From: a virus | Virus record (IMG/VR): IMGVR_UViG_3300035698_004778 | Span: 1-27,180 of that record | DNA: 27,180 nt | Direction: 5' to 3' (one strand) | Shown: piece by piece, positions 6,264 through 27,180 of the stretch | Position numbering within the stretch: position 1 is the first letter of the stretch | Layout: every line of letters begins with the position of its first letter | Notes under the pieces: generated by a model | Told to the model about the DNA's origin: nothing | The model's database searches: none | What the model saw: only the letters and a program-made list of their open reading frames with translations | Position numbers and translations under genes: made by a program

Positions 6264-6264
6264 G

Positions 6265-6693
6265 ATGATTAGAGTACCCTATTGGATAAATAAATATTAT
6301 TACGTGAGAAAGCATAGTGGATGGATAAGAGGTAAGCCTAATGAACGAGTAAAAGAACAACGACAAGAAGTCTTTAATATTGACCCTAAAATAAAACACG
6401 AACAGGTCGATGATATTGTCAGATATTTCAGAGACTACTATCGAGGAGCGCCATGGTTCGGATTATCAAAAAAGGACAGACTTAAATTGTTTAAAGAAAA
6501 AGATGGAATTTGTTGTCTGTGCGGATTACCAGTTGCACACGGACAGATGACCGTAGAACATAAAAAAGACCAAGTGGAATGTATTGTAGATGATGAAGAC
6601 CCACATGTCTGGGAGAACTACGATCTAGCACACGAAGAATGTAATAGCCAAAAACCGAACGCTTTCAGTGATGCTAAAAAGGATGTAATATAA
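6265..6693 (+). CDS. HNH endonuclease
   Basis: I start this at ATG 6265 (142 aa), directly after the preceding gene; an earlier ATG at 6169 would lie wholly inside that gene. Residues 1-60 are a basic tether (MIRVPYWINKYYYVRKHSGW). The HNH core follows: DGICCLCGLPV with Cys84 and Cys86 or Cys83, TVEHKKDQ with the catalytic His99, and YDLAHEECNSQK with His123, Cys126 and Asn127, completing the zinc-bound beta-beta-alpha-metal fold. Phage HNH proteins include homing nucleases and packaging partners. This one is about 3 kb before the terminase genes and may be a free-standing homing-type enzyme. Confidence 0.82.
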   Translation: MIRVPYWINKYYYVRKHSGWIRGKPNERVKEQRQEVFNIDPKIKHEQVDDIVRYFRDYYRGAPWFGLSKKDRLKLFKEKDGICCLCGLPVAHGQMTVEHKKDQVECIVDDEDPHVWENYDLAHEECNSQKPNAFSDAKKDVI

Positions 6694-9216: not shown

Positions 9217-9594
9217 ATGGCAGTTTCAAAAAATTCATTAAAAAACCTAAAGATTATTAAGAAAGGGGAACGTAAAAATCCTAATGGTAGACCGAAAGGA
9301 GCTTTGTCGTTAACTAACCAAGTGAAAGAGATACTGAGAGAAATTGCAGAGACGAAAGATAAGAATGGAAAGAAAATAAAAATGACAAAAGCTCAACTGC
9401 TCGGATTGAGTATTGTAAACAGAGCAATCAAAGGCAACGACAACATGTCCAAGTTAGTGTGGAACTACCTAGACGGAATGCCGAAGCAAGATGTCAAACT
9501 CGATGTAGAAGGCGTAACACCATACACAGATGATCAACTCAAAACAATCGCAAAGAGAGTCGCTGGCACTAGTAGCAAGCGCATCAAAAAATAG
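9217..9594 (+). CDS. Terminase small subunit-like DNA-binding protein
   Basis: The 125-residue protein begins with a basic stretch and the motif NPNGRPKGALSLTNQVKEIL, typical of the GRPKG-type proteins that precede phage large terminases. A helical segment with QLLGLSIVNRAIKGNDNMSK and WNYLDGMPKQDVKLDVEG follows, where 'DGMPKQ' is common in these proteins. The small subunit recognises the packaging start site and hands DNA to the large subunit. It overlaps the large terminase gene by 65 nt in another frame. AAGAGAA upstream is a weak Shine-Dalgarno-like sequence. Confidence 0.75.
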   Translation: MAVSKNSLKNLKIIKKGERKNPNGRPKGALSLTNQVKEILREIAETKDKNGKKIKMTKAQLLGLSIVNRAIKGNDNMSKLVWNYLDGMPKQDVKLDVEGVTPYTDDQLKTIAKRVAGTSSKRIKK

Positions 9595-10960
9595 TCTGGT
9601 AAACTTCCAGATAGCAACGAATCCAAAGTATGATCCTAACTGGCATCACGAACTGATAGCAAAAGAGCTTGAGCATGTTGAAGCGTATGGAGATAGAGAC
9701 TACAAGATACTTATTTTGTCTGTACCTCCTCGTCATGGAAAGAGTCAGCAAGCTACAATCGACTTCCCTGCATGGTATCTAGGAAAGAACCCAGACAAGG
9801 AAGTCATCACAGCATCATATTCAAGTGAATTGGCACAGGACTTCGGTACAAAGACACGTACAAAAATAGAAAGCGAACAGTATGAGATTATATTCCCAGA
9901 CGTTAAACTAAAAGCAGACGAACGTGCAAAGGCTAAATGGAAGACATCTAGCGGTGGAAGTTATATATCAGTTGGAGTTGGTGGACCGATAACTGGTAGA
10001 GGAGCAGACATAATGATTATTGATGATCCCGTGAAAAACCGAGAGGAAGCGAACTCGGAAGTATATCGGAGTAAGATATGGGAATGGTTCACATCAACAG
10101 CTTTCACACGATTAGAGCCAGGAGGAGTTGTAATTGTTATTTTAACTAGATGGCACGATGATGACTTAGCCGGAAGAATTATTGCGCACCCAGAACTGTC
10201 AAAGCGTATAAAGATAATGAACTTCCCTGCAATATCCGAGATAGAAGATACACACAGACATGCAGGTCAAGTATTGTGGCCGAAGAAATATCCAAAGGAA
10301 GCACTAGAGGAAATCAGGACAACACTCGGTCCATACGACTGGTCATCACTCTATCAACAGACTCCGATACTATCCGAGAACCAAGAGTTTAAGAATGCGT
10401 GGTTCAAACAAATAGGATTAGTGGAAGTGGAACGAATGAACACTCGGAAGTTTCTAACAGTTGATACTGCAATGAGTAAAAAAGCGCAGGCAGACTTCAC
10501 CGGATTTTGTGATAACTCAATCAATACCGAGAAGTTCTGGCACTTGAAAGCGTGGCAGGCAAAGATTGGACCAGAGGAGTTAGTCGATACCCTATTTACT
10601 CTACACAGAGAGAGACGATACGAAAAGATAGGGATAGAAAAGACAGCATACCTAGAGGGACTGAAACCTTTCCTAGACTCGGAGCAAAGAAAGCGTGGGA
10701 TATTCCTGCCAATAGTAGAGCTACATCACAACTCAACTGCAAAGGAAGTGAGGGTCAGAGCATTGACACCACGATACGCAAGTGGTTCGGTATTTCACGT
10801 AGACGGACATTGTACTGATCTAGAAAATCAGATGGTAAGGTTTCCGTTTGGTGTACACGATGACATAATAGATGCAGTTGCGTACCAAGAGCAAATCGTA
10901 GGAGATGACGAGGAGTTAATGGGAAAGGTTCAACAATTCAGACCGAAGATGTCCACATAG
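9530..10960 (+). CDS. Terminase large subunit
   Basis: The 476-residue packaging motor has an ATPase domain with Walker A VPPRHGKS (65-72), Walker B IMIIDD (161-166) and the coupling segment LTRWHDDD (205-212). It also has a C-terminal RNase H-like nuclease with LTVDTAMS (Asp312), IGIEKTAYLEG (Glu370) and HDDIIDAVAY (Asp444, Asp445, Asp448). All catalytic residues are present. It pumps DNA through the portal and cuts it. The ATG at 9530 overlaps the small subunit by 65 nt; no later in-frame ATG would keep the NPKYDPNWHHELIA segment that normally precedes the ATPase core, so I accept it. Confidence 0.95.
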   Translation: MINSKQSQRESLALVASASKNSLVNFQIATNPKYDPNWHHELIAKELEHVEAYGDRDYKILILSVPPRHGKSQQATIDFPAWYLGKNPDKEVITASYSSELAQDFGTKTRTKIESEQYEIIFPDVKLKADERAKAKWKTSSGGSYISVGVGGPITGRGADIMIIDDPVKNREEANSEVYRSKIWEWFTSTAFTRLEPGGVVIVILTRWHDDDLAGRIIAHPELSKRIKIMNFPAISEIEDTHRHAGQVLWPKKYPKEALEEIRTTLGPYDWSSLYQQTPILSENQEFKNAWFKQIGLVEVERMNTRKFLTVDTAMSKKAQADFTGFCDNSINTEKFWHLKAWQAKIGPEELVDTLFTLHRERRYEKIGIEKTAYLEGLKPFLDSEQRKRGIFLPIVELHHNSTAKEVRVRALTPRYASGSVFHVDGHCTDLENQMVRFPFGVHDDIIDAVAYQEQIVGDDEELMGKVQQFRPKMST

Positions 10961-10997: not shown

Positions 10998-11189
10998 ATG
11001 AGAGATACTACATTCGAAGAGCTAGAAGAGATTAACAAAAAATCTCCTATACATACAGATTTTATAAACGATGATATAATTGCTTTGCCTAAATTGAAGA
11101 GACAAGATAACTCTCAATACCCGACAGAAACAAAAGCCTTACAATATAAAAAACATGTTAGCCCACTACATAGAAAAAGCAACAAGTAA
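10998..11189 (+). CDS. Small protein of unknown function (63 aa) before the portal
   Basis: This 63-residue hydrophilic protein begins MRDTTFEELEEINKKSP and ends in a basic tail (YKKHVSPLHRKSNK). Its end overlaps the portal start by 35 nt in another frame. TTGACA occurs 25 nt upstream of its ATG, but no good -10 fits. Function unknown; the overlap suggests a virion-assembly gene or a coupled leader for portal translation. Confidence 0.55.
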   Translation: MRDTTFEELEEINKKSPIHTDFINDDIIALPKLKRQDNSQYPTETKALQYKKHVSPLHRKSNK

Positions 11190-13116
11190 AGAAAGGAGTA
11201 ACTATACTCCTCCAAAAGCTGTGAAAGAGATGACAGTATCTAATCAAAAAGATGCACAGCATGTTTATGATTTACAACAGAAACCTTTCAGAGAGTTTAA
11301 CGACATGTCCGTGCTAGATCGGCAGGATTTGATGCAAAAGACTTTTAATACATATGAGGAAGCGCCACCAAATGATCCAGACGAAAGTTGGAAGTGGAGA
11401 GGAGTAAATCCAACATCGAGAAACAAATCAATATCAATGGCAGCACACTTGATTTCATCAATGCTCTATCCTAATGCAATGGGACAAAATGAGTTAGATG
11501 AAGAGGACAAAGGAGCATCAGAAGTGATGTCATCGATGATCAAGTGGAATATAGACAACTCGGACTACGAAATGAGCATGCTCTTTGGTGTTGTAGCATC
11601 GTGTGTAAATCCCTGCGCATACATAGAACTGGAATATATAGAATCAATGCAGACAGTGCGTGAAGATCTAAAGAATGGAGATGTCAGTATCAAAGAGGTT
11701 ATAGATCAAATCACGACAGGTATTCAAGTCGAGAACGTTCCAATGGAAGAGGTAATGATTTCAAACTTCTATCAATTCCATCATCAGAAGCAACCTTTTA
11801 TTGTCCGAAGAAAACTAATTGATTTCCAAGAGTTTGAAAACAAGTACTCAGGACACAAAAATCTAAAGTTTGTGAAGCCAGGAGTGCAGGTAGTATTTAA
11901 TGCAGAAAATAACACATTTTATGAAGTTGAAGAAACAAGCAAGGATCATCTAGTGGAAGAGCTTACATTCAAGTCACGGACAAAAGACTTTGAGATTACA
12001 TATGTGAACGGAATATACTTCGGAAAAGATAACGTAGAAGCTAACAAAATGAAACACCGAAGATGTGTAATGGGTAAGTTTGGGGATAAAATGGAAGTGC
12101 CTGTCTACAGTGAAGCCAAATGGGGATATGAACCAATCGATGAAAAAAAGTTCTATTACTACAAATCACTTGTGGATAAGTTATGGCCAGAGCAAAGATT
12201 GCTTGATCGTATGTCACGACTAGATGTAGACACTTCAGTTATGGATGCATTACCTGCACTTATTACTACAGGAGCGCCAAAGGTAGACTCATCTGTTCAC
12301 TTTCCTGCAGCAGTTACAGCATTTCCAAAAGATGCAACTGTTATTCCACTTAACACAGGTCGAAACCTCAACTCTCTAAAAAACAAAATAATCGAAACAG
12401 AACAGACCATGAATAAAAGCTCACAAGATGATATTCGTGGAGGTTCTGCTCCACAAGGTCAACGAACTGCCTATGAGATAGCGAGAGTCGAACAGAATGC
12501 AATCATCAAGGAATTCGCCATTTTTGGGCGAATGGTGGGCAATGCTGTGGAACAGATAGGAGACTTGATGGTCGATTTGATTATCAAGTATCAAACTGTT
12601 GGAGAGGCAGAAGAAATCAGTATCGGAGCATACAGATTGACTGACAAAAACTACACTCTCCAAAATGAAACAATTGATGGTAGAAAGTTCACTAAGAAGA
12701 TAAGATTTACTGATGAAATGATGGGAAGAGACATGACAGAAGATGAAGTCATCGAAGATAGCTATAAAAAATTAGACGAATCAGAAAAAAGTGGTGTATA
12801 CTTATATGAGGCGAATCCCGTTCTTTTCGCAAACAGGAAATATACTATCAATATAGAACCAGATCAGATGATGCCTCGCCTTGAAGCATTCAAAGAAGAG
12901 AAGAATATCAGGGCAAGGAATTTGATGTTGTCTAGTCCCTATGCAAATATAGAAGAGGTGGATAGGGACTTCTTGTTCGATCCTTTGACAGAGGGTCAAA
13001 GTGATAAGTATATGAAGAAAGCGAATGAGCTGGGGATAACCGGGGCGCAGGATGGGTCGATACCGGCAGAAGATGATTTATTAAATAAAACACAACAAAA
13101 TGGCATACTTGAATAA
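11155..13116 (+). CDS. Portal protein
   Basis: At 653 residues this has the size of portals of short-tailed phages. It follows the terminase and precedes the scaffold and capsid genes. The N-terminus has the charged DMSVLDRQDLMQKTFN and RNKSISMAAHLISSMLYPN segments; the clip/stem region includes FYYYKSLVDKLWPEQRLLDR. Near residue 426 it has DIRGGSAPQGQRTAYEIARV, matching the portal motif 'GG-x-x-T-A-x-E-(I/V)' before the long crown-side helix. The dodecameric portal sits at one capsid vertex, passes DNA and holds the tail. The ATG at 11155 overlaps the previous gene; the next in-frame ATG would remove about 25 residues. Confidence 0.83.
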   Translation: MLAHYIEKATSKERSNYTPPKAVKEMTVSNQKDAQHVYDLQQKPFREFNDMSVLDRQDLMQKTFNTYEEAPPNDPDESWKWRGVNPTSRNKSISMAAHLISSMLYPNAMGQNELDEEDKGASEVMSSMIKWNIDNSDYEMSMLFGVVASCVNPCAYIELEYIESMQTVREDLKNGDVSIKEVIDQITTGIQVENVPMEEVMISNFYQFHHQKQPFIVRRKLIDFQEFENKYSGHKNLKFVKPGVQVVFNAENNTFYEVEETSKDHLVEELTFKSRTKDFEITYVNGIYFGKDNVEANKMKHRRCVMGKFGDKMEVPVYSEAKWGYEPIDEKKFYYYKSLVDKLWPEQRLLDRMSRLDVDTSVMDALPALITTGAPKVDSSVHFPAAVTAFPKDATVIPLNTGRNLNSLKNKIIETEQTMNKSSQDDIRGGSAPQGQRTAYEIARVEQNAIIKEFAIFGRMVGNAVEQIGDLMVDLIIKYQTVGEAEEISIGAYRLTDKNYTLQNETIDGRKFTKKIRFTDEMMGRDMTEDEVIEDSYKKLDESEKSGVYLYEANPVLFANRKYTINIEPDQMMPRLEAFKEEKNIRARNLMLSSPYANIEEVDRDFLFDPLTEGQSDKYMKKANELGITGAQDGSIPAEDDLLNKTQQNGILE

Positions 13117-14678: not shown

Positions 14679-15197
14679 ATGGCCAGAGCAGATCTAAAAG
14701 TGATTAGTGGTCACGGACCAACTATCACATATAATGTAGATGACAGAACAACTTCATCTCAAACTGTTGCACTAGAACCAGGAGAGCCTGTAAAAGTAAG
14801 TACTAACTTTGTTATTGCTCTTGCTACAGGAGATCCACAAATTGCAACTGATGAGTTTGTAGGAATCGTTCGAAAGAAAAGTACAGAAACTTCAACTGTT
14901 GATGGAACAGTAGAGGTTCTTTGTACTGTTCCAGGACTTACAGTTATTCGAGGAAAGGCAACAACAGTAGCTAATATTGATACTGCAGCAGAATTGATAG
15001 GTGTCATTGGTGACTGGGTTACTATCGATGTAACTGGAGCAGGAACTAATGGACCAACAGGTGTATTCACATTCAATGAGGACGAGGGGAGTGACCCTAA
15101 CGTTCACGGATTTAAGATTATTCGAGGGAATACTGTAAAAGGTACTCTTGATTGTCTAGTACACTCAATGGCATCACAAGCAGGAACAAACGTTTAA
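14679..15197 (+). CDS. Capsid decoration-like protein (putative)
   Basis: This 172-residue, beta-rich protein begins MARADLKVISGHGPTITYNV and has the turn GEPVKVSTNFVIALATGD, then ATDEFVGIVRKKSTE, followed by alternating strands and Gly/Asp turns. Small beta-rich proteins directly before the major capsid gene are commonly head-decoration proteins that stabilise the shell, and the 'G-E-P-V ... D-x-F-x-G-I-V' pattern resembles those. Cysteines are few (two). A minor head protein is the alternative. The leader is AAATAAAA with no Shine-Dalgarno sequence. Confidence 0.55.
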   Translation: MARADLKVISGHGPTITYNVDDRTTSSQTVALEPGEPVKVSTNFVIALATGDPQIATDEFVGIVRKKSTETSTVDGTVEVLCTVPGLTVIRGKATTVANIDTAAELIGVIGDWVTIDVTGAGTNGPTGVFTFNEDEGSDPNVHGFKIIRGNTVKGTLDCLVHSMASQAGTNV

Positions 15198-15233: not shown

Positions 15234-16184
15234 ATGGGACCAAACACAGGACTGTCTCCAGAGACAGTAAAAGAATCTCTGGATGAGGTGTACTACCCAG
15301 AATACGACTACAAGGAGGGAAGAGGAATCATCACAGCAGAAAACGGAACATTCTTCAATCAGAAGAACACATCGAAGAGTGCCGTTCAAACTGAAGAATT
15401 CCTACCAGTAGGAGAATGGGAAGAGCATGCTGAAGAAGAAGAAATTCGAGTTGCAACTGTGCGAACAGACAACAAGAAAGTACATACTGTATTGAATTAT
15501 AAGAAAGCATTGAAAATCCCAGTAGAATACTACGAAGATGAAATGCATGAAGTAGTAAACAACGCAATTCGATCAATGGCACGACGTGCTAGAACTACGA
15601 AAGACAAAGTTGCTCTTTCAAAGTTCTCGAATGGATTCTCAACTGAAACTACATCAGATGGTGTAGCAGTATTCAGTAACTCGCACACACTACTTTCAGG
15701 GGACTCAATGGATAACTTGGAAACAGGTGTATTCAATGCAACGAACCTTGAAACAATGGTGCGATCATTGCGCCGTCAAAAAGCTCAAGATGGAGATTTG
15801 GGAGGACATGACGCTTATGGTTTGCTTGTTGCGCTTAACCTGTACGAAGATTCACTAGAAGTGACTCGTTCAGAACTAAAGCCAGGAACAGCGAACAACG
15901 ATACAAACATCTTTATGCTTTCTGCAGCGTACCCCTCACTAGAAATGGTAGGAACATCTGCATTCTTGCATTCAGATTATAGTACAGCGACTAACGTAGA
16001 CACAGCGTACTACGTGACATCACGAAATCACTCTTTGAATCGATGGGTGCGTATCTCAATGGATACAAACATTATTGATTACAAGTTTGATGACAAAGAC
16101 CGATACACATACAAAGGTCGATATCGAGAAATTACTTCTTGGGTATCTCCAGAGGGTGTAGCGGCTTCAAATGGAACTGTTTAA
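15234..16184 (+). CDS. Major capsid protein (HK97 fold)
   Basis: The 316-residue protein sits after scaffold and decoration genes and has the expected parts. An N-terminal arm (1-30) leads to an extended acidic loop region (EWEEHAEEEEIRV, 61-73) and a long spine helix about 103-133 (MHEVVNNAIRSMARRARTTK then KVALSKF). VFSNSHTLLSGD (146-157) resembles the 'FSN-x-H-x-L' motif of many phage capsid proteins, and LRRQKAQDGD (179-188) follows. It has no cysteine. It forms the icosahedral shell. The leader TTATAAATTATG has no Shine-Dalgarno sequence although this should be the most strongly translated gene. Confidence 0.85.
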   Translation: MGPNTGLSPETVKESLDEVYYPEYDYKEGRGIITAENGTFFNQKNTSKSAVQTEEFLPVGEWEEHAEEEEIRVATVRTDNKKVHTVLNYKKALKIPVEYYEDEMHEVVNNAIRSMARRARTTKDKVALSKFSNGFSTETTSDGVAVFSNSHTLLSGDSMDNLETGVFNATNLETMVRSLRRQKAQDGDLGGHDAYGLLVALNLYEDSLEVTRSELKPGTANNDTNIFMLSAAYPSLEMVGTSAFLHSDYSTATNVDTAYYVTSRNHSLNRWVRISMDTNIIDYKFDDKDRYTYKGRYREITSWVSPEGVAASNGTV

Positions 16185-16207: not shown

Positions 16208-16681
16208 ATGGAAAAAGGAACAATTAAAATATGGGTGGCAATCGCAATTGCAATCGTCATCGCATTGATTGGTCTGGTTGGTGGTAATCAATCAGAACCA
16301 AGAGTCGCAGGTATGTCAAATCTAGATGGATTGACACTCGTACCGGTAGACTCGACAGACGGATTAAAGGTAGGTTCAAACGGAAGTACAAACCAAGAAA
16401 TCAATTCGACAACTTGTACGTTGGCAACAACAGAGCTTCCACTAGAAGCTACTTCAACTGATGCTTTCACTTGTGCAATCACAGGTGTAAACACAGGAGA
16501 TCAAGTATTTGTATCTTTACCATCTAACAGCGGTTCTAATCTAGGAGGATTTGTCGTAGATTCAGCAACAGCAGGAAGCGGTACTATTACAGTTGGGATT
16601 ACCAATTTGACAGGAGCGGCGACATCGTCATTCCCATTGGCAACAACTTCGGTACAGGTTCTTTATTTCGACACATTGTAG
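16208..16681 (+). CDS. Membrane-anchored, Thr/Ser-rich small protein
   Basis: Residues 8-24 are a clear hydrophobic helix (IWVAIAIAIVIALIGLVGG) after a short charged start, so this is a signal anchor or an uncleaved signal. The remaining 130 residues are Thr/Ser/Gly-rich beta-type sequence with exactly two cysteines (Cys70 and Cys89), suited to a disulfide outside the membrane. ATST and ATTE runs resemble Patescibacteria surface proteins. It lies directly after the major capsid gene, an unusual place for a membrane protein. Possible roles are a virion head fibre, an exported surface protein (for example blocking superinfection) or a receptor-binding part. The gene at 16753 has the same architecture. 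Function unknown. Confidence 0.75.
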   Translation: MEKGTIKIWVAIAIAIVIALIGLVGGNQSEPRVAGMSNLDGLTLVPVDSTDGLKVGSNGSTNQEINSTTCTLATTELPLEATSTDAFTCAITGVNTGDQVFVSLPSNSGSNLGGFVVDSATAGSGTITVGITNLTGAATSSFPLATTSVQVLYFDTL

Positions 16682-16729
16682 TGGTTATTCCACTCCATCC
16701 CTTTACAGGGGTGGGTCTGGGATAATCAC
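16681..16729 (+). terminator. Strong two-part stem-loop after the anchored protein gene
   Basis: GTGGTTATTCC (16681-16691) pairs fully with GGGATAATCAC (16719-16729) with two G.U pairs. Inside it CCATCCC (16695-16701) pairs with GGGGTGG (16708-16714). The stem begins at the last base of the stop codon. The sequence after it (ATTAAAAAC) lacks a U-tract, so it may be an attenuator, mRNA-stability element or processing site rather than a full terminator. Confidence 0.5.
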
Positions 16730-16752
16730 ATTAAAAACTAATCAAAATCAAA

Positions 16753-17190
16753 ATGAAAAATACATTAAACATCATACTTTCAACAACTATCGTGGCAGTA
16801 TTGATTGCAATTACAGGAGTCTTTATTGCAAAGAGCGGGACTGTTTTCGGACAGGCAGGTAATCTTTCTCAAAAGTCTTGTGTGCCGACTTTAAGTACTG
16901 TCTCAATTGGAGCTGATATATCAACACAATTGGTATCGACAAGTTCAAACCGAGCATGGCTTCGAATCGAGGTCAATCAAAATGCAACGAACACAATAGC
17001 TCTTGCATTAAATGACGTGCCAGCAGTTGTGAACGGTGGAATCATCCTAAACAAAGCAAACACAAACGGTGCGAGTACAACTCCTCATATTGAAATGGGA
17101 TTGAACACAGACCTTCCATATGTAGGATCAGTAACAGGAATCACAAACATTGGATCAACAACCGCTTTAATAACTGAATGTATATACTAA
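16753..17190 (+). CDS. Second membrane-anchored small protein
   Basis: This 145-residue protein repeats the architecture of the gene at 16208. A hydrophobic helix at about 8-26 (ILSTTIVAVLIAITGVFIAK) is followed by a beta-rich, Asn/Thr/Ser-rich domain with only two cysteines, Cys43 near the start of the domain and Cys143 near the end, which could join as a disulfide. NTNGASTTPHIEMGLN lies in the middle. It begins 23 nt after a strong stem-loop. I recognise no family; the pair with 16208 suggests exported or virion-surface proteins with a related job. Confidence 0.72.
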   Translation: MKNTLNIILSTTIVAVLIAITGVFIAKSGTVFGQAGNLSQKSCVPTLSTVSIGADISTQLVSTSSNRAWLRIEVNQNATNTIALALNDVPAVVNGGIILNKANTNGASTTPHIEMGLNTDLPYVGSVTGITNIGSTTALITECIY

Positions 17191-17193
17191 ATT

Positions 17194-18336
17194 ATGTTAG
17201 TTTCAGACGTAAAATTCAATATCAAAAGACTACTACACGGTGCTTCTGAAGTATCAGTGGGAGATATTGAATTGATGATGGAACGTGCAGCAAACACAAT
17301 GCTCACAAAGGTAGATTTACTAAGTACCATTCGAACTGTAGGACTTACCAACGTGGTCCACGATGATATTTATAACTACGCTCTACCATCAGACTTCAAT
17401 AAACCGATTGATTTGTACCCACAGGATAGTAGGTACGAGGGGGACAAAGCCGGAAGACGATTTGCAGAAGCATTTGACCTTAGTAAAGCGCTAGAAGAAA
17501 AGCAAATATCAATCGAATCAAAAGAGGGAACTAAAATACTACGAGTAAATTGGAAATCTCGACAAGGAAAGGTTCTCCATGATATGAATTCTCTAACAAG
17601 TAACGGAACGTGGAGTGCAGTAGGTTCTGCGACAGGATTGGCAGCCGATACCATATTCAAGGTATCAGGAAGTGCATCGATTAAGTTTGATTTGGTAGCA
17701 GACGATGATGGAATCCAAAACACTTCAATGGATGCAGTCGATATGACACTAGAGGATGAGGTAGCAGATGTATTCGTATCAGTCTATATTCCATCTGTGC
17801 CGGATGACATCACAGCGGTATGGGGAAATGACTTAACTACGAATTACTGGACAAGCACAGCACAAACCACACAAGCCGATGGAACAGCACTTCGAGTAGG
17901 GTGGAACATCCTAAAATTCTCATGGTCGTCAGCAACAGAAACGGGAACAGTAGTACCGACATCGATTGATTCGTTCAAGGTAACCGTAGGAAGCTCTGTG
18001 GCAATGAGTGACATCCGAATAGACAACATTATATTCTCAATCGGTAGAAACTTCGATATAAAATACTACTCAAAGTTTATTTATAAAAACTCATCAGGCA
18101 CATGGTTAACACGAACCACAGATGACGGAGATACAGTGGTCTTGGACAATGATGAAATACAAATCTATCTTCTTGAATGTTTGGTGGCATCATCGCAACA
18201 ACTCCAGTCAAAGAACATGGCCAACGACATTGCATTTGCGAAAAATGAATTGCTTGAGCTATACGCTAAATATAAAGAAGAACATCCGAGTCAAGTTAAA
18301 AAAACAAGGGGACATTATTACAAACTAAACTTCTAA
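17194..18336 (+). CDS. Head-tail adaptor-like protein with inserted beta-sandwich domain
   Basis: This 380-residue protein follows the head genes. Its N-terminus (MLVSDVKFNIKRLLHGASEV, about 1-60) and C-terminus (EIQIYLLECLVASSQQLQSK and a KNELLELYAKYKEEH helix) look like the two halves of a small helical connector protein as in P22 gp4 or T7 gp11. Between residues about 135 and 282 lies a beta-rich domain (NGTWSAVGSATG; SASIKFDLVADD; VGWNILKFSWSS; IRIDNIIFSIG) with the strand pattern of carbohydrate-binding jelly-rolls. It would sit on the portal and hold the nozzle. A tail spike base is an alternative. Function from order and pattern, not from a recognised family. Confidence 0.55.
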   Translation: MLVSDVKFNIKRLLHGASEVSVGDIELMMERAANTMLTKVDLLSTIRTVGLTNVVHDDIYNYALPSDFNKPIDLYPQDSRYEGDKAGRRFAEAFDLSKALEEKQISIESKEGTKILRVNWKSRQGKVLHDMNSLTSNGTWSAVGSATGLAADTIFKVSGSASIKFDLVADDDGIQNTSMDAVDMTLEDEVADVFVSVYIPSVPDDITAVWGNDLTTNYWTSTAQTTQADGTALRVGWNILKFSWSSATETGTVVPTSIDSFKVTVGSSVAMSDIRIDNIIFSIGRNFDIKYYSKFIYKNSSGTWLTRTTDDGDTVVLDNDEIQIYLLECLVASSQQLQSKNMANDIAFAKNELLELYAKYKEEHPSQVKKTRGHYYKLNF

Positions 18337-18338
18337 AC

Positions 18339-20258
18339 ATGGATGATTTCAAAATCAACATAATAGATAAATTCGCTAGCTACAATAGTGCGAGCGATAA
18401 ATCAAAGTTGCCTATAAATCATCTTGTTAGAGGTTCTAAAAACGTCTTTAAAAAAATAACAGGTGCGATTGCTACACGAACAGGATTGAAACGTCGAGGA
18501 TCAGCAGACTCAACCGATGCCGGAGTAACATCATCATTTGATTGGAACACTAATGTGGGGAATATAAGACCATTGAGAGTGGCGAATAATAAGTTACAAG
18601 TGGAGTCAGACATTGTAACGAGTGGAACATACGTCTGGTATGACTTGGTACTTACAAGCACACTACTTTCTCCGGCAACTGTATTCACAAGATTTGTATT
18701 CGATACATGGTGGGACAATGACGAAAAGACAGACAGACTCTTAATGGTTAGAGGAGATGACAATTTAATATCGTGGTCAGGTGGAATGGCAAAGGTTGAA
18801 TCATCAACTGCGAACACAATAACTTTAGTAGGAGATACAACGTGGGCGGCACAAGGATTCGCAACAGTTATAGCAGGAGAGCAGAGGGTAGTAATCGGTG
18901 GAGTAGAATATACATACACAGGAGGAGAGGACACAGACACTTTGACTGGAGTAACGCCAGATGCATCAGGAATAACAGTCGGAGCAGTCGCAATCCAGGC
19001 ACTTATCGTAGAGGCCACTGTACCAGTCACAGATAATAAGGCAGATTACATCAAGGTTATAAATAATCAAGTGTGGGCAGGTTCGTACTCATCAAAGGTA
19101 ACTTATATCTCGTCTGATTTAGATTTTAGAGACTTTGTAAATGCAGGTTCATACGTTTATGGAGATCCAGATAAAATCACTATGGACAATAACGGAAAAG
19201 GTATCGGAATCAGTAATGATGGGCGAGTCGTTTTGTTTGCAGGAGATTCGGATATGTACATTGTCACTCCGAACACGAACGTTACATTCTCATACACAGG
19301 TGGAGACGGAAACACACGACTCATGTACCAAAAGATTGAAAAGAAACAACTATCAGGATTGACTTCGGCACTAGGACACGAATTTATCGGAAACTTAGGA
19401 GAATATCTTGTGTGGGTAGATCAGAAGAATAGATTGCGAGCATTGGGGACATTTGCAAACGTAGATGCAATCAAACCTATATCATTATCGGTTCAAGTGC
19501 AGAATGAATTGACTGAAGATGACCTTACTGGAGGACATTTACGAGTTATCCAAGACAACGATGGCGAGACTGTTTATATCACAGCGCCAAACACAGGCCG
19601 TGACTGGATGTATCAAATAAGGGACTCTATAGACGAAAATGGGCAAGTTACGACAGAAAGGCTGTGGCAACCTCCTCAAGTGCGAGGAATAGCCCGTTTT
19701 GCCGTGATTAGTGGGGTTATATACGGACATTCAAACGTAAATCCGCAACTTTATCAGGTGTGGGACACAAATCAATGGCATGATGATAATCCAGCCGATG
19801 AAACTATTCCGTACACTTGTGTGGCCAGATTCCCATACGACAACAACAAGCAATCGGAAAAGTTACTATCTTTTGATAAACTATATACAGAGGGATATAA
19901 ATCACAAGGATTGGAATTACTAGCAACAGTTTATTTTGACTATCAAGGAGCGACAGGAACACGAGATTTGATAATTGACAACGCAGATAACCTAGCGAGT
20001 TTCTTCACAGGCGTAATACCTCCATCAATGGGGACATCTTCACTTGGGGATAATCCATTGGGAGACGGAATTGTCCCAGAGGGAGGGGAGCAGGAACTCT
20101 TGCCAAAGTTTAGAGCATTAAATGACCTTGACCTACAGGACTGCTTCGAATATGCCATTGAATATTACTCAACCGAAGCAGATTCTAGATGGGAACTGCT
20201 TAGAATTGGTACAAATGTCAAAGAGTCATCAAATAACCCAACATTTATAAGAAAATAA
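18339..20258 (+). CDS. Tail nozzle-like protein (tail tubular B / P22 gp10-like)
   Basis: The 639-residue, beta-rich protein begins MDDFKINIIDKFASYNSASD and continues KNVFKKITGAIATRTGLKRR, where an early 'I-x-x-R-x-G-x-x-R' element resembles the start of podophage nozzle proteins. Repeated blade-like strand units follow (KVINNQVWAGSYSSKVTYIS; NDGRVVLFAGDSDMYIVTP; IRDSIDENGQVTTERLWQPP) compatible with a beta-propeller. In P22 and T7 such proteins form the tube end below the adaptor and carry the fibres. It directly follows the adaptor-like gene (2 nt). Some blade segments resemble any propeller, so the exact family is uncertain. Confidence 0.65.
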   Translation: MDDFKINIIDKFASYNSASDKSKLPINHLVRGSKNVFKKITGAIATRTGLKRRGSADSTDAGVTSSFDWNTNVGNIRPLRVANNKLQVESDIVTSGTYVWYDLVLTSTLLSPATVFTRFVFDTWWDNDEKTDRLLMVRGDDNLISWSGGMAKVESSTANTITLVGDTTWAAQGFATVIAGEQRVVIGGVEYTYTGGEDTDTLTGVTPDASGITVGAVAIQALIVEATVPVTDNKADYIKVINNQVWAGSYSSKVTYISSDLDFRDFVNAGSYVYGDPDKITMDNNGKGIGISNDGRVVLFAGDSDMYIVTPNTNVTFSYTGGDGNTRLMYQKIEKKQLSGLTSALGHEFIGNLGEYLVWVDQKNRLRALGTFANVDAIKPISLSVQVQNELTEDDLTGGHLRVIQDNDGETVYITAPNTGRDWMYQIRDSIDENGQVTTERLWQPPQVRGIARFAVISGVIYGHSNVNPQLYQVWDTNQWHDDNPADETIPYTCVARFPYDNNKQSEKLLSFDKLYTEGYKSQGLELLATVYFDYQGATGTRDLIIDNADNLASFFTGVIPPSMGTSSLGDNPLGDGIVPEGGEQELLPKFRALNDLDLQDCFEYAIEYYSTEADSRWELLRIGTNVKESSNNPTFIRK

Positions 20259-20268
20259 CAATAAAAAT

Positions 20269-22230
20269 ATGGAAATATTAAAAACAATCACAGGAATATT
20301 ACTAGCGCCACTGTTTATGGCGGCAGGATGGGCAGGAGTACTTCCTAATCAGCAACTTGATGTGTCTCCAGTAATTAAGGATCAAGTCGAGCAAGCGATA
20401 GAAGAAAACTTCGGAGCATTTAGCGTAACTGGAGGTGGAACATACAGACTTAAAGCATCAATAGGTTCAGTTGACACGACAGTAAACCTAACTGCTTTTA
20501 AAGAACCAGTTTCAAACACTCCATATACAATGAGTTATATAAATACTACGATTGGATACGGAACTCTCTCTCCACAAACAACACGTTCGGAATTCATCTC
20601 ATTCACAGGGATAACACAGAATTCAAATGGTTCAGCACAACTGACCGGAGTTTCCAGAGGGTTATCTAGAACTCCACAAGGAAATGGATGTACAGCTTCA
20701 ACTACTCTGGCACAAAAGCATGCCGGACAATCAACTTTTATATTATCTGATTCCCCTTGTCTATTTGCAGAGTACGCAGTGAAAAGTAATGACGAAACTA
20801 TTACAGGTTCGTGGACTGTACCAACTCCAACGGCAGCAGGAAACCCTACGACAAAGACTTATGTTGATGCACTTGTAAATGGTGGAACAGTATCAACCGA
20901 TGCAGTGATTGTAGCGGCAACCGCAGGCGAAACTGTAGCGAGTGGGCAACTAATATACTTCAACCGATACGAAGCAGAGTGGAAATTGACTGATGCCGAT
21001 GTAGCTTCAACAACAAATGGAATAATGCTCGGAGTTGCTCAAGGTGCAGGAACAGACGGTGTAGGAATTAGTGGAGGTGTATTGCTCAAAGGATTAGATA
21101 CAAAGAATCCGGGTGGAACTAATGGAGATGTCATTTATATTTCAAACACAGCCGGAGCAACTACAACCTCAGCAGGAACTACAGAACGAGCAATCGGAAT
21201 AATGCGTTCAAATACAGCATTTTACTTTGATCCAACGTTCTCAGTACCAAACCTGCAACTTTCAACTGGAAAGATTGATAGTAACTTAATTGCGACTTCA
21301 ACATTGGGACTAGATCACTTCGGAGGTAATGCATCAGACGGTGCGCTGACCTGTACATCGGGAACTACATACATTGACTTATTAGGAGCGACTACAACAG
21401 TGAAAGAATATAGCTCAATTTCAATCACAGGAACTTGTGCAATTGGATTTATAAATGCAGCGACTAACGGAGTAGCTACAACAGGAAGTGCCGTGATATT
21501 TAAATCTCAAGGAGATGTGACTATTACATCAAGTGCAACTAGAGCAATTGACGTTAGATCACTCGGAGCATATGGAGGTGCAGGAGGTTCAGTATTCGCA
21601 ACAGGGACAATCGCATATAAAGGCGATAGTTGGCTAACAACCCCATGGCATGGAATGGGAGGAGGTCCGGGACTAATTGGGAGTCGTTCAGGACTAGAAG
21701 CAGGCGGAGCAACAACAACTCCATTCTCTATATCATCATCGAACGCATCGGGTATATTTAAATATATCTTCGGAGCAGGTGGAGGTGGAGGTGGTGGAGG
21801 ATGTGCAAATGGTGGTTCAGGAGGTCCGGGAGGTGCAGGTGGACACGGTGGTGGTTCACTTAAACTTCAATCAGGTGGAGCATTAAACTTCACAGGGACA
21901 ATTGATGCATCAGGAATCGCAGGAACAGCAGGGAGTGCTTCATCAGGTGCAGGAACAGGTGGTGGAGGTGGAGGTGGAGGTGGAGGAGGTTCAGTTCATA
22001 TTGAATACAATGTCCTTACTGCTAACACAGGAACTTTAATAACAACAGGAGGTGCAGGTGGAACTGGTGGAGGTAATACAAGCCCAGGTACATGTTACGG
22101 TGGAAATGGTGGATCAGGTGGAGCAAGTGCAACAAGCACACTTCCGACAGCAAAATCATCAGGAACTACAGCAACACCAGGTTCACCAGGTGCAGGTGGT
22201 GTATACTTTATTGGTAAGAGAGTAAATTAA
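20269..22230 (+). CDS. Glycine-rich, export-signal-bearing adhesin / tail fibre
   Basis: The 653-residue protein starts with a hydrophobic segment (about 4-24, TITGILLAPLFMAAGWAG) like a signal peptide or anchor. Residues about 60-330 are Thr/Ser-rich beta sequence with a T-K-T-Y-V-D trimer-type motif near 200. About 330-500 is a beta-solenoid-like region. The C-terminal 150 residues are glycine-rich (runs of 9 and 11 Gly near 504 and 563) ending GVYFIGKRVN. Long Gly runs of this kind form polyglycine-II helices in known phage adhesins (S16 gp38). Six cysteines occur as three close pairs. It probably binds the host surface. An N-terminal export signal on a virion fibre is unusual. Confidence 0.72.
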   Translation: MEILKTITGILLAPLFMAAGWAGVLPNQQLDVSPVIKDQVEQAIEENFGAFSVTGGGTYRLKASIGSVDTTVNLTAFKEPVSNTPYTMSYINTTIGYGTLSPQTTRSEFISFTGITQNSNGSAQLTGVSRGLSRTPQGNGCTASTTLAQKHAGQSTFILSDSPCLFAEYAVKSNDETITGSWTVPTPTAAGNPTTKTYVDALVNGGTVSTDAVIVAATAGETVASGQLIYFNRYEAEWKLTDADVASTTNGIMLGVAQGAGTDGVGISGGVLLKGLDTKNPGGTNGDVIYISNTAGATTTSAGTTERAIGIMRSNTAFYFDPTFSVPNLQLSTGKIDSNLIATSTLGLDHFGGNASDGALTCTSGTTYIDLLGATTTVKEYSSISITGTCAIGFINAATNGVATTGSAVIFKSQGDVTITSSATRAIDVRSLGAYGGAGGSVFATGTIAYKGDSWLTTPWHGMGGGPGLIGSRSGLEAGGATTTPFSISSSNASGIFKYIFGAGGGGGGGGCANGGSGGPGGAGGHGGGSLKLQSGGALNFTGTIDASGIAGTAGSASSGAGTGGGGGGGGGGGSVHIEYNVLTANTGTLITTGGAGGTGGGNTSPGTCYGGNGGSGGASATSTLPTAKSSGTTATPGSPGAGGVYFIGKRVN

Positions 22231-22231
22231 C

Positions 22232-23815
22232 ATGCCTCCAACACAACCAACACAAAAAAAGAGTTTCAACAATATGTCAGTAGGACAAGCAACTGATTAT
22301 ATTAACGAATTGAAAGAGCAAACTATCCCAGTTACTCCGCCTACTCCACAAACAGTATTGTCTCCAAATACCGCATTAGAAGACGTTCAGAAAAAATCAA
22401 ACCAATTAAACAAAATTCAAAAGGAAAAGAAAGCCACTCCAAAACAGCAAGACTCTATTTCGGATGCAGAACGACAGATATTAGACTTTGAAGATTCAAG
22501 TCAAGCAGAAGAAAAGAGGATTACTGCATTATACGATGCATACGCAACTCAAATGGATGTTAGATCACAACAGACAATGGATTCAATCAAAACTATAAAG
22601 CAAGCTCAAATACGTGATGAGAAAGAATCAAACGAAAAGACTAAACTAGCATATGAACGATATGGGATAAGGCAAGGATTGGCTAGATACGCAGGGGAAT
22701 CAACACAGGCCACTCTAAATCAAGTAGAGAAAGACGGACTGCAACGAATAGGGGATATTGTGAACGAAGAATCGACTTTATTGGTAGAAGCTCAAACTGC
22801 ACGTGAAAACAATCAATTCTCTGTATTTAGAGATAAAATGAATGCATTGGAGGGTATTCGAAAGGATAAAAACGATACTATTAAGACACTTCGAGATGAA
22901 GCGAATACACAACGAGCATTGTCGCAAGAAAGAATAGAAAAAGCATCACGAGACGGTGCGATACTTATTCTGTACGATCAAGGGATTACAGACGTGTCAT
23001 CGGCAATTGTATTATTGAACTATGATGATCAAGGTAACATGATTGGAGATTTTACTGCCGAAGAAATAAGTGGAACATTGGGACTAGTCGGGATTGAAGA
23101 TAGTGCAGACACTTCGGGATTCCCTGCAACTTCAAGACTATTATTGGCAATGAAACCGGATGCGACAATACAAGAGATGATAGAGTTTGAGAGACAATTT
23201 AGTGGAGCGGGTAGAGCGCCAAGTACAGGAGGAGGTGGTTCAGAAAAATCAAATCAACAAATCGATAATGAAAGAGCTGCGTTCAGTCAATTTAAAGGAG
23301 AGCCGATTATAAAAAATTATAATGAAGTATTAAATAAAAAAATAACAGTAGATAACATTGTGAATAGAGGAATCAGTGGACCAGGCGATCTTGCGTTAGT
23401 GTTCGAATTTATGAAGTCGCTCGATCCAACATCAGTTGTACGAGAAAGTGAGTATGAGTCAGCTTCAAAATCAGGAAACATGTTCGTAGGTGCTTTTGCT
23501 AGATTCAATGGATACCTAAGACCAAATGGAGGTATTCTGCCACAAAACGTCAGAGAAGAGTTTAATGCATTAGTTAATATAAAGATGAATGCATCACAGA
23601 GACAATACAATAATCTCAAGAAAGAATATGAAGATACTGCAATAAGACAAGGTCTTGATCCAAGAAATGTGGTTATAAATTATTCAGGTGCATTAAATGA
23701 AGTGAAAGTAGAAGAGTTAAAACAAGGAGAAATAAAAGTAGAGGAAATCTCATCAGGTCGAGTGGGAGCTATACCTGAATCAGAATTTAAACCAGATGTT
23801 TATCGGAAATTATAA
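22232..23815 (+). CDS. Internal virion (ejection) protein, putative
   Basis: This 527-residue, mostly helical protein has a Pro/Gln-rich disordered start (about 1-75) and then long charged helices (SQAEEKRITALYDAYATQ; VEKDGLQRIGDIVNEESTLL). A Gly-rich linker near 335 leads to a C-terminal domain with GISGPGDLALVFEFMKSLDP and SVVRESEYESASKS, a pattern I associate with phage internal and ejection proteins and lytic-transglycosylase partners. Such proteins are stored in the head and injected first. There is no signal or membrane segment. A tape-measure role is less likely because the phage looks short-tailed. Confidence 0.62.
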   Translation: MPPTQPTQKKSFNNMSVGQATDYINELKEQTIPVTPPTPQTVLSPNTALEDVQKKSNQLNKIQKEKKATPKQQDSISDAERQILDFEDSSQAEEKRITALYDAYATQMDVRSQQTMDSIKTIKQAQIRDEKESNEKTKLAYERYGIRQGLARYAGESTQATLNQVEKDGLQRIGDIVNEESTLLVEAQTARENNQFSVFRDKMNALEGIRKDKNDTIKTLRDEANTQRALSQERIEKASRDGAILILYDQGITDVSSAIVLLNYDDQGNMIGDFTAEEISGTLGLVGIEDSADTSGFPATSRLLLAMKPDATIQEMIEFERQFSGAGRAPSTGGGGSEKSNQQIDNERAAFSQFKGEPIIKNYNEVLNKKITVDNIVNRGISGPGDLALVFEFMKSLDPTSVVRESEYESASKSGNMFVGAFARFNGYLRPNGGILPQNVREEFNALVNIKMNASQRQYNNLKKEYEDTAIRQGLDPRNVVINYSGALNEVKVEELKQGEIKVEEISSGRVGAIPESEFKPDVYRKL

Positions 23816-23826
23816 AAAACAATACT

Positions 23827-25608
23827 ATGGCATTTAGAGAACTACAAAATACTGCAACAGAACCACAAAGTGGTGGATTTCGAGAGTTGCAAACTCCACA
23901 ACAACCAGAACAAGAGGAGAGGTCTATTCCAGAAAAGCATGTCGGTGGGCTTGCAGGTAAGTTTTTAAACTCAGACTTCTTCAAGAGTGAAAAAGGACTC
24001 GGAGAATCTGTAGGGAGTGCAATGGGAATGCAGGACACGAATGCCGGTATCGAAAGAACGATTCAAACTCAAACAGCGCTATTGGATAAACTCCGAAAGG
24101 TTAGAAATCAGGATGGAGATACAACTTCAATTAAAAAAGCGCTTGCACAAAGTCAAAGAACAATGGGAATGCTAAATGAATACAATACACAAAATCCATT
24201 GGCGAATAAGAGTAATACACAAATATTCGGGGAAGCGGCAGGAACACTTCTAGATATGACAGCAGTTGCTCCGGCATTAAAAGTTTCAACTAAACTATTG
24301 AATGGACTATCTCCATTGGGTAAGAACGCAGTCACAGGGCTTGTAAATGGCGCAGTATTCGGCGGTACGGAGAGTTTTGCACGAGCTTTGCAAGATGATC
24401 AAGGAAAGGGCGATATAGCCATGAAGACTGCAATTGGTGCAGGTGGAGGTGCAGTATTTGGAACGGCGCTCGGAGCGGTAGTACCAGGAGCAGCGAAAAC
24501 AGCAATGGCTATTAAAGACGGAATCAAACCTGCCCATATAATGCAGAGGGTTGCGAGGATTAGTAAAGGAAAGCAGGCGAAGTTTGAAAAAATAGCAGGA
24601 GAAAGTGTCGGAGATTATTTAACTAAACGTGGAATATTTGGCGACATCGATGAAATTACAGGACAACTGTATAAGAGGTTCGAATCCTCAAAGAAACTAG
24701 CAGATGATGCACTAGAACAGATTGATGGACTATACGAACCGGAAGTAGTTAAAACTGCATTAGGAGAACTACTAGAAAGAGAAGCAAGAACATCATCTCC
24801 TGGTGCTTTGTCTCCAAACCTAAGTAGAGTAAAGAGATTAAATGATAAATTAAATCAAAAAGGTCTATCAATGTCTGAAATAAATAAAGTCAAAAGACTT
24901 TATGAGAAGAATATAAAATTAGATTACTTGAGACAAAACCTCCCAGAGTCAATTGCAAGAGCAAATAATGTTGATGATGCAATCAGAAAGTGGCAATTTG
25001 ATAAATCGGATGAAATGGGACTTAAAAACCTCCCAGAAATAAACAAAGAAACAAGACTGGCTAGACAACTTGCCGATGACTTGGGAGCAGAACATGCAGG
25101 ATCAGCAGGAAACAACGCAATAACACTAACTGACTGGATTATACTATCGGGTGGAGAACCAACATCAGTCGGTGCTTTTCTTGCGAAGAAGACTCTATCC
25201 AGTAGAGGTGTCAGTTCAGCATGGGCAAAGTATTTGTATGACGGACCAGAAGTAGGATTTCCAAAGGCACAGTTTGAGACTCCATTCGGACAACAACCAC
25301 GACTAGGAGCAGGCACAAGAGGACAATCATCAAACAACGTTCCTATTGAACTCCCCACTTCAATAACCGAGCAAGCTCTCGGAAAAGATGAGATTAAAAA
25401 TGCTGTTATAAAGAGAATGAGCAGGCTAGAAGAACTCGATGCTACAGAGGAAGCGTTGTTTAATAAAATCGTGAATAAACAAAAACTAACTTCCGAAGAA
25501 GAAAGTTTATTGAATAAATTGGTATCGGATGAGCCGTCTTTTAACTCGGGAACTGTCCCTGAAACAGTAGGGGAAAAGTTTGGAAAGATATTAGGAAAAG
25601 ACGATTAG
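23827..25608 (+). CDS. Membrane-interacting internal virion (ejection) protein, putative
   Basis: The 593-residue protein starts with two FRELQ repeats (residues 3-7 and 18-22) in a Gln/Pro-rich segment. Residues about 137-230 are Gly/Ala-rich and hydrophobic (IFGEAAGTLLDMTAVAPALK; IGAGGGAVFGTALGAVVPGA) like the glycine-zipper segments by which ejection proteins enter membranes. Helical Lys/Glu domains follow. It directly follows the other ejection-type gene. In podophages three such proteins form a channel through the cell envelope; a third is not identified here. The leader ACAATACTATG is repeated before the gene at 25701. The function is inferred from composition and position. Confidence 0.6.
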   Translation: MAFRELQNTATEPQSGGFRELQTPQQPEQEERSIPEKHVGGLAGKFLNSDFFKSEKGLGESVGSAMGMQDTNAGIERTIQTQTALLDKLRKVRNQDGDTTSIKKALAQSQRTMGMLNEYNTQNPLANKSNTQIFGEAAGTLLDMTAVAPALKVSTKLLNGLSPLGKNAVTGLVNGAVFGGTESFARALQDDQGKGDIAMKTAIGAGGGAVFGTALGAVVPGAAKTAMAIKDGIKPAHIMQRVARISKGKQAKFEKIAGESVGDYLTKRGIFGDIDEITGQLYKRFESSKKLADDALEQIDGLYEPEVVKTALGELLEREARTSSPGALSPNLSRVKRLNDKLNQKGLSMSEINKVKRLYEKNIKLDYLRQNLPESIARANNVDDAIRKWQFDKSDEMGLKNLPEINKETRLARQLADDLGAEHAGSAGNNAITLTDWIILSGGEPTSVGAFLAKKTLSSRGVSSAWAKYLYDGPEVGFPKAQFETPFGQQPRLGAGTRGQSSNNVPIELPTSITEQALGKDEIKNAVIKRMSRLEELDATEEALFNKIVNKQKLTSEEESLLNKLVSDEPSFNSGTVPETVGEKFGKILGKDD

Positions 25609-25635
25609 GAGTATCTAAACGAAATCCAAGCAACT

Positions 25636-25689
25636 ATGCCTATGAAAAGTATTCCGAATAACATAATAACTGCTACAATTACAACATAA
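25636..25689 (+). CDS. Very short ORF (17 aa), doubtful
   Basis: ATG 25636 to TAA 25687-25689 would encode MPMKSIPNNIITATITT in the 92-nt gap between the ejection protein and the fibre-like gene. No Shine-Dalgarno sequence is seen. Amino-acid composition resembles the Thr/Asn-rich structural proteins, but at this length it may be chance. Confidence 0.2.
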   Translation: MPMKSIPNNIITATITT

Positions 25690-25700
25690 AACACAATACT

Positions 25701-26639
25701 ATGCCAATCAAACTAAATCAACAACAAAAACTAGAAGTATACCGAACTGCGAAAGTAAAGCAGGATTTAGGATTTATGTTGGCATTGGATATGATCGTAA
25801 AACAAGTCGAGGAATCTATCCAAGAAACTTTCAAGAGAATGATGCCGGAGATGATTGATAAAGCACAGGAATTCAAGCTTGGAGAGATAACTGAACGATT
25901 GACTCGTAGCGTATTAAACGACATCAAAGGAGAGCCAGGACACAGTCCAGTAAAAGGAGTGGACTACATGACAAAAAGCGATATAAATACCCTCGCACAT
26001 GAAATATTAGAGTATGCAAGACCACGAAAAGGAGAGGATTATATGACCATGAATGAAAAGAAAGAATTCGCAGATATGGTATTGGAAATGATAGGACCAA
26101 TCAAAGACGGAAAGACTCCAAAGGCAGGAGTTGACTATCTAACTCCGAAACAAGCTATTAAAATCATTCTTGCAGAAGTCAAGAAATTCGCAAAGTCTAC
26201 TGGTCGAACGATAGAGAGCATGAATTCAGAAAAAATAAAAGAGAATTTAGGAACTGCCGAATATGTAGAAGTAATAGCAAGAGCAATTGAGCGACTTCCT
26301 GTAGATAAAAAACTAGACTATAACTACGGATTGAAGAATCAACCAGGAGTCAAACTATACGATGAGAAACAAACAAAGGGACTGAAAAGACTCGGTAGAG
26401 GTACTGGTTCAGATGTCAGAGCTTATGATGTATCAGGACTTCTAAACGGAGTATTAAAGACATTTACAATACCGTCAAACTCAAGAGTATTGTCAGTAAC
26501 ATCATCTTCGTTCCCAACGACATTCAGGCCAACAGTTGATTACACGACAACCGGAACAACAATTACATTCACATCAGAAGTAGATGCAGGCACAACATTA
26601 TCAGCAGGGCAAACCCTAGTAATCGTATATGTAGAATAA
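25701..26639 (+). CDS. Fibre- or spike-like protein with three DYMT repeats
   Basis: This 312-residue protein has an N-terminal helical part (1-75). Three tandem units of about 30-40 residues follow, each opening with a Gly/Asp-Tyr motif: KGVDYMTKSDINTLAHEIL, KGEDYMTMNEKKEFADMVL and KAGVDYLTPKQAIKIILAEV, joined by PGHSPV or GKTPKA linkers. Residues about 230-312 form a Thr/Ser-rich beta domain (SRVLSVTSSSFPTTFRPT; VDAGTTLSAGQTLVIVYVE). The linker style resembles 'KGVDY' repeats common in fibre shafts. No signal peptide is present, unlike the next gene, whose ATG overlaps its stop (TAATG). It is probably a tail fibre or spike component. Confidence 0.6.
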   Translation: MPIKLNQQQKLEVYRTAKVKQDLGFMLALDMIVKQVEESIQETFKRMMPEMIDKAQEFKLGEITERLTRSVLNDIKGEPGHSPVKGVDYMTKSDINTLAHEILEYARPRKGEDYMTMNEKKEFADMVLEMIGPIKDGKTPKAGVDYLTPKQAIKIILAEVKKFAKSTGRTIESMNSEKIKENLGTAEYVEVIARAIERLPVDKKLDYNYGLKNQPGVKLYDEKQTKGLKRLGRGTGSDVRAYDVSGLLNGVLKTFTIPSNSRVLSVTSSSFPTTFRPTVDYTTTGTTITFTSEVDAGTTLSAGQTLVIVYVE

Positions 26640-27180
26640 TGAAAAAAACACTAAAAATAATAATATTATTGATGACGATATTTGGACTTTATTCATATGC
26701 TAATGCACAACAATTCGGCGCTCCATCATCATCATTCCAACGATCATTGATTCCAATAGATTCAACAGAGAACGTGGGAACATCAACAAGCCCATGGGAT
26801 GAGGGACACTTCAACCACTTGCTCACAGGATATATTGATATTAGCTCTACAACAGCAACATCTACATTTTCTGGAAATGTGAACGTATCAGGAAATCTAC
26901 AAGTAGACGGGGTATTATTTGCGCCTATCTCTTTTGTATCTTCTGGAGATATAACAGCAAATGCTTTTATTACAAATGGGGGTGCTTCAACAGACTTTGT
27001 AAAAGGAGACGGATCACTTGATAGCTCTACGTACTTAACCTCTGTATCAGGTGGGGACCACGGAACACTTTCAGGCTTATCTGATGACGACCACACTCAA
27101 TATGCTTTATTACTTGGTAGAAGTGGAGGACAAACTTTAATAGGTGGTACAGCTAGTGGTGATGACTTAACTCTGCAATC
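26639..27180 (+). CDS. Tail fibre with Sec signal peptide (3' partial)
   Basis: The ORF runs off the right edge; about 180 residues are visible. It begins with a textbook signal peptide, MKKTLKIIILLMTIFGLYSY then ANA|QQF, a type-I signal peptidase site after residue 23. The mature part has PWDEGHF, an ISSTTATSTFSG segment typical of Parcubacteria surface proteins, a GDITANAF..GGASTDFVKGDG unit and the phage-fibre motif GDHGTLSGLSDDDHTQYALL then GRSGGQTLIGGTASGDDLTL. That last motif is widespread in phage tail-fibre and spike proteins. A cleavable signal peptide on such a protein is odd, as tail fibres are normally assembled in the cytoplasm. Confidence 0.82.
   Translation, partial: MKKTLKIIILLMTIFGLYSYANAQQFGAPSSSFQRSLIPIDSTENVGTSTSPWDEGHFNHLLTGYIDISSTTATSTFSGNVNVSGNLQVDGVLFAPISFVSSGDITANAFITNGGASTDFVKGDGSLDSSTYLTSVSGGDHGTLSGLSDDDHTQYALLLGRSGGQTLIGGTASGDDLTLQ

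Follow-up and report, generated by a model that had tools for sequence, protein, structure and literature searches.

On the accepted view, tailed phages are put together entirely in the cytoplasm and leave the cell by lysis. Export of virion proteins is a feature of the Inoviridae, whose coat proteins pIII and pVIII are Sec-exported and stay in the inner membrane until they enter the particle. Membrane passage at the other end of the cycle is known in podoviruses, whose internal proteins cross membranes during infection, and lambda carries lom, which codes for a known outer-membrane protein. A further possible comparison is RSA-ATP1, which the consulted part of its description presents as an uncultured patescibacterial tailed phage of an ultra-small host (PMC13059738).

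The window (the whole stretch of DNA analysed, 27,180 bases, IMG/VR record IMGVR_UViG_3300035698_004778, from an uncultured virus) shares with T7/P22-type podoviruses the nozzle fold and the order capsid, adaptor, nozzle, fibre and internal proteins. The window genes located below from 9530 onwards lie on the + strand. The large terminase subunit (9530..10960) matches PHROG 38 (E 8e-103), the portal (11155..13116) was called by position and size without a family match, and a probable head cement or decoration gene (14679..15197) was called by position, also without a family match; a gene at this place, preceding the capsid gene, is present in relatives too. The major capsid protein (15234..16184) shows weak but consistent matches to PHROG 371 and Pfam Mu-like gpT. 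The tail adaptor (17194..18336) was called by position only, between the gene named B below and the nozzle gene; it is conserved at the same position in 33 aligned sequences, and a search against solved structures gave no match. The tail nozzle, of the T7 gp12 / P22 gp10 type (18339..20258), gave no match in a sequence search of phage records, and its model (pLDDT 86) matches the tails of cyanophage A4, T7, Carin1, P22 and Sf6 (Foldseek E 1e-16 to 1e-11). Two large genes occupy the place of internal virion proteins (22232..25608), and the one starting at 23827 matches an internal virion protein family, PHROG 342 (E 1e-5). Since the nozzle model folds like those of T7 and P22, and since a terminase and a capsid-type gene are present, the virus is by its gene content a podovirus, known here from genes alone. 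A filamentous phage is ruled out by the same three genes. Upstream of the terminase the window also codes for a GroEL-type chaperonin (7191-8798, PHROG E 3e-71), with a large gene of similar size at that place in the relatives L003, L006 and L009, as well as for NinG/Rap-like and HNH endonucleases (4988-5428 and 6169-6693).

Set among these genes are four others that a sequence-only reading had singled out as beginning with export signals or membrane anchors. Gene A (16208..16681), directly 3' of the capsid gene, codes for a small protein with the anchor WVAIAIAIVIALIGLVGG followed by a Ser/Thr-rich domain with 2 Cys. Gene B (16753..17190) codes for another small protein, with an N-terminal signal or anchor and 2 Cys, one at each end of the mature domain. 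Gene F (20269..22230) codes for a tail-fibre protein in which the anchor and a linker (residues 1-50) precede a tail-fibre domain (51-190), a second domain reaching to about residue 325 and a Gly-rich tip. Gene D (26639..27178) codes for a distal fibre with the cleavable signal MKKTLKIIILLMTIFGLYSYANA-QQ, and its sequence ends after 180 aa, cut by the contig end. The most hydrophobic 15-residue stretch at each N-terminus was set against 20,000 shuffled versions of its protein; p was 0.00025 for A, 0.009 for B, 0.021 for F and 0.014 for D, and above 0.15 for each of the ten other packaging and structural genes tested. The claim of four signals was confirmed and came out stronger than it had been put. 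The core genes, i.e. portal, capsid, adaptor, nozzle, internal proteins and the fibre stalk described below, carry no signal, and neither do the terminase and the probable cement gene.

Signals were called by a hydropathy rule and cleavage sites were read by eye. Applied to five annotated phages (T7, lambda, Pam1, KPP25 and ctsTn925; 72 genes from their structural regions), the rule gave 2 positives, lambda lom and a KPP25 gene that lies beside the endolysin and is spanin-like in appearance. Chance hydrophobic N-termini were rejected on the shuffles and the control phages together. The clean cleavage site reported for D is present (SYANA-QQ) and is the sole textbook site among the four; the segments of A and F look like uncleaved anchors, and that of B reads as intermediate between an anchor and a cleaved signal (VFG-QA). 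The remarks on composition also hold: Ser and Thr make up 24-30% of the mature parts of A, B, F and D versus 11-19% elsewhere, and a recount of cysteines agrees with the even numbers given for A, B and F (2, 2 and 6) and with none in the capsid protein.

The family of F includes members with and without the signal. Scanning with the conserved F domain gave 38 database loci, some of them near-copies; a signal or anchor plus linker precedes the domain in 24/38, and the gene starts at the domain in 14/38. That a start codon had been overlooked in the signal-less forms was rejected: stop codons just upstream exclude a missed signal in 13/13 distinct signal-less members checked. The F domain is homologous between the two groups, no part of the protein is better conserved than the tail-fibre domain, and some members of each form match the tail family PHROG 863. 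The F of the window gave no match in a sequence search of phage records; its model (pLDDT 85) matches viral tail-fibre proteins in BFVD (E 1e-7 to 1e-4), its best matches among solved structures being phage capsid decoration proteins with weak E-values. By its known fibre domain and its place after the nozzle gene, F is a tail-fibre protein. A clear type I cleavage site, which is absent from A and from most F proteins and clear in D and in several B, is found in the F of L108. The fibre N-termini of L139:7860, L140:7848, L157:9817 and L160:10475 are type IV prepilin-like (KGF/RGF, then a hydrophobic stretch) and not ordinary signals.

A comparable division is seen in the distal fibre. The fibre stalk (25701..26639) overlaps the start of D, and in the signal-bearing phages a signal-less stalk gene (248-312 aa) is directly followed by a separate D with a cleavable signal, an arrangement found in the window, L105, L109, L113, L118, L120, L122, L123 and L134. 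The signal-less L111, L115, L130 and L131 have a single gene of 515-865 aa that comprises stalk and distal part and has no signal. The stalk profiles of the two groups align with 98% probability (E 1e-13), a value to which coiled-coil bias may contribute. Among the D-type proteins of relatives, that of L120 matches families of virion structural proteins and tail spikes (E 4e-37 and 4e-23), that of L123 an esterase and a tail fibre, that of L109 a lectin domain and that of L134 a tail fibre. That the exported candidates are proteins of virion type is thus upheld by the fold and family matches of F, by the family matches of D-type proteins in relatives and by the gene order of signal-less podoviruses.

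Signals also tend to occur together. Between capsid and adaptor, 20/24 loci with a signal-bearing F carry an A-type as well as a B-type gene with an anchor; L121, L136 and L137 clearly have one such gene, and L140 has unrelated genes at the A/B place. Loci with a signal-less F mostly have soluble small proteins at these places, the exceptions being L129 and L172, with an anchored A, a soluble B and a signal-less F, and L116, with two signal-bearing neighbours and a signal-less F. The A protein of L159 has no anchor and starts, with MGITNYDSLTLSEDLVVG, exactly where the anchored forms continue (GITNYDSLTLGENLIVG in L108). In L157 and L160, which were found independently by the nozzle scan, A, B and F are all anchored. 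Throughout the relatives examined, signals belong to the outer genes of virion type, and a core gene hardly ever has one; in L139:5938-7824 the nozzle-type gene itself starts with a hydrophobic stretch resembling an anchor. The nozzle tree shows 4 changes in the signal state of F, at least 3 of them on well supported branches. Since this amounts to only 3-4 changes, the coupling reflects few independent events, and independent-contrast tests of it gave no significance, there being too few pairs on the nozzle tree.

Downstream of the terminase, 12/93 genes are of signal type in terminase relatives of at least 50% identity and 8/197 genes in those below 42%, the recurring places being two small genes after the capsid gene and then the fibre genes. 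One such signal-bearing protein, in L007 (MKKYIIFALLLIALPAYA-KF), matches the Pfam Phage Tail Collar family (E 1e-20) and a PHROG tail protein (E 3e-36). L088:17868-20694, from an Omnitrophota bin, has Shine-Dalgarno sites and signal-bearing proteins downstream of its terminase, one of them with a lectin domain; from this locus the trait may reach beyond the lineage of the window. A nozzle profile was positive in 0/193 genomes of that phylum, which shows little.

Several features of the family bear on whether these segments act in export. In four of the comparisons made (B with its counterpart in L104, the closest relative, and F with those of L108, L110 and L122) the signal segments are 15-36% identical and the mature parts 60-68%; for B of L104 the values are 20% and 63%. 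In the same closest relative the signals of A and F are 97% and 69% identical, as expected at short distance. Cysteine numbers are even in 39/40 anchored A/B proteins and exactly two in 33/40, counts that are inflated by kinship; size-matched signal-less genes of the same contigs have odd numbers in 23/76 and exactly two in 9/76. Kinship likewise inflates the counts for F, where the number is even in 14/15 signal-bearing proteins and a Cys pair occurs in 13/25 signal-bearing versus 0/14 signal-less members. The even count proposed earlier as a sign of disulfides is strong across the family and means little in a single protein. Charge is positive before the hydrophobic stretch and lower after it (positive-inside bias), and tetramers of the Ala-Thr-Ser-Thr type are enriched in exported F and not in the nozzle of the same phages. 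Because diverging signals, Cys pairing and charge bias come together, Sec export and folding in an oxidising place are likely. A, B, F and D are thus very probably exported via Sec, judging from their sequences, and we infer that they would be oriented with the C-terminus outside, their disulfides forming in an oxidising place. The idea that virion-cluster proteins are exported, as first put forward, is well supported by signals that are kept though diverged, family-wide Cys pairing, the positive-inside bias and signal-less sisters that lack the Cys pair.

What the exported proteins do next can be told with less confidence; the sequence-only reading had offered two options, placement on the host's surface and the fitting of some virion parts at the envelope. 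The reading that we favour, at about an even chance, is that a cytoplasmic core is later joined by exported A, B, F and D to form the virion. The core, i.e. head, portal, adaptor, nozzle, internal proteins and fibre stalk, would be built in the cytoplasm, and the adhesive proteins of the exterior (A, B, F and D) would be sent through the Sec pathway of the host, where they would be held by an uncleaved N-terminal anchor or freed by signal cleavage and would form their disulfides, to be added to the core once it arrives at the envelope or crosses it. Tentatively, and short of an even chance, the virion would then be assembled in two compartments and its parts united at the envelope as it leaves the cell, the division into a stalk gene and a distal gene being the genetic mark of this. 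Joining as such, which we consider roughly balanced, is favoured by the conservation of the fibre domain of F above its other parts, by the lack of a soluble replacement and by the stalk kept beside the exported distal fibre. Against joining stands the look of the anchors of A and most F proteins, which appear uncleaved and, unless the fibre were freed, would keep it in the membrane of the host, and we know of no mechanism by which a cytoplasmic capsid picks up membrane-anchored fibres.

The same anchors, with the fibre side outside, fit a second reading that we think possible if rather doubtful, in which the exported proteins are not virion parts and remain on the surface of the infected cell as adhesins that block superinfection, hold virions or bind neighbours. 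Distal parts with lectin, esterase and Gly-rich binding domains would suit such adhesins, and genes for phage surface proteins, that for lambda Lom among them, are known near tail genes. This reading leaves the conserved fibre domain at the same gene place unaccounted for, no second, soluble F being seen in signal-bearing loci to replace the exported one, and it would be hard to see why a stalk is kept as its own gene directly before an exported distal part that it never meets. A reading of the four genes as accessory cargo (morons), coding for unrelated surface proteins within the late operon, would agree with how common single accessory surface genes are in phage late regions, lom being an example, but is improbable given four positions in a fixed order across many contigs, signal-less homologues of F and A in the same place and the tail and virion family matches of F and D-type proteins. 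Very improbable, too, is that the helices are an entry device inserting into the membrane of the next host at injection and not export signals: they do stand at the N-terminus of fibres adjoining the nozzle gene, and podovirus internal proteins do pass through membranes in infection, but the helix would be lost wherever D, several B and several F have classical cleavage sites, the Cys pairing speaks for synthesis into an oxidising compartment, and the signal segments are the least conserved part. An artefact, with host genes joined by assembly error or start codons wrongly placed, is conceivable for a window and relatives that are all uncultured contigs, but is scarcely credible when the arrangement recurs in more than 20 separate contigs and upstream stops confirm the starts of the signal-less forms.

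Concerning the host, Shine-Dalgarno sites precede 1/27 window genes at the four-base level and 0/27 at the five-base level, which suggests that the host initiates translation in another way. Such sites are missing from most relatives of either group as well, and the lack was therefore rejected as a mark of the signal-bearing group. From the repeat style (Ala-Thr-Ser-Thr) and the missing Shine-Dalgarno sites, a patescibacterial host is no more than suspected. One MAG labelled Pacearchaeota (G030) holds two phage contigs with signal-bearing fibre-type genes (L095/L096, on G030:C22, and L087); an archaeal host on this basis was rejected, mis-binning being likelier, with the nozzle profile positive in 1/279 genomes of the phylum, namely this one.

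If export is true, either the particle is finished at the envelope or the infected host is covered with phage receptor-binding proteins. Under the favoured reading, in which exported parts join the core, this would be, to our knowledge, the first tailed phage to finish its particle at the envelope. Either outcome bears on adsorption, spread and the exclusion of rivals by phages of uncultured, possibly ultra-small microbes, and homologues with and without the signal make the question directly testable. A search of the open-access literature, with most subscription journals outside it, found no earlier description of export signals on tailed-phage fibres.

Among the systems compared, the consulted part of the RSA-ATP1 description makes no mention of signals on virion proteins (PMC13059738), whereas the phage of the window has them on its outer proteins. 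The tail fibres of T7 and lambda are without an export signal, whereas the fibres and the small head- and neck-region proteins of the window carry one. Lambda Lom resembles the genes of the window in being signal-bearing and near tail genes, but it is a single, non-virion outer-membrane protein, whereas in this family several genes of virion type change state as a set, with signal-less homologues at the same positions. A likeness to the proposed assembly is seen in pIII and pVIII of the Inoviridae, Sec-exported virion proteins that stay in the inner membrane until they join the particle; filamentous phages leave by extrusion and lack both capsid and terminase, whereas the phage of the window has a capsid and a nozzle and would export only its outer parts.
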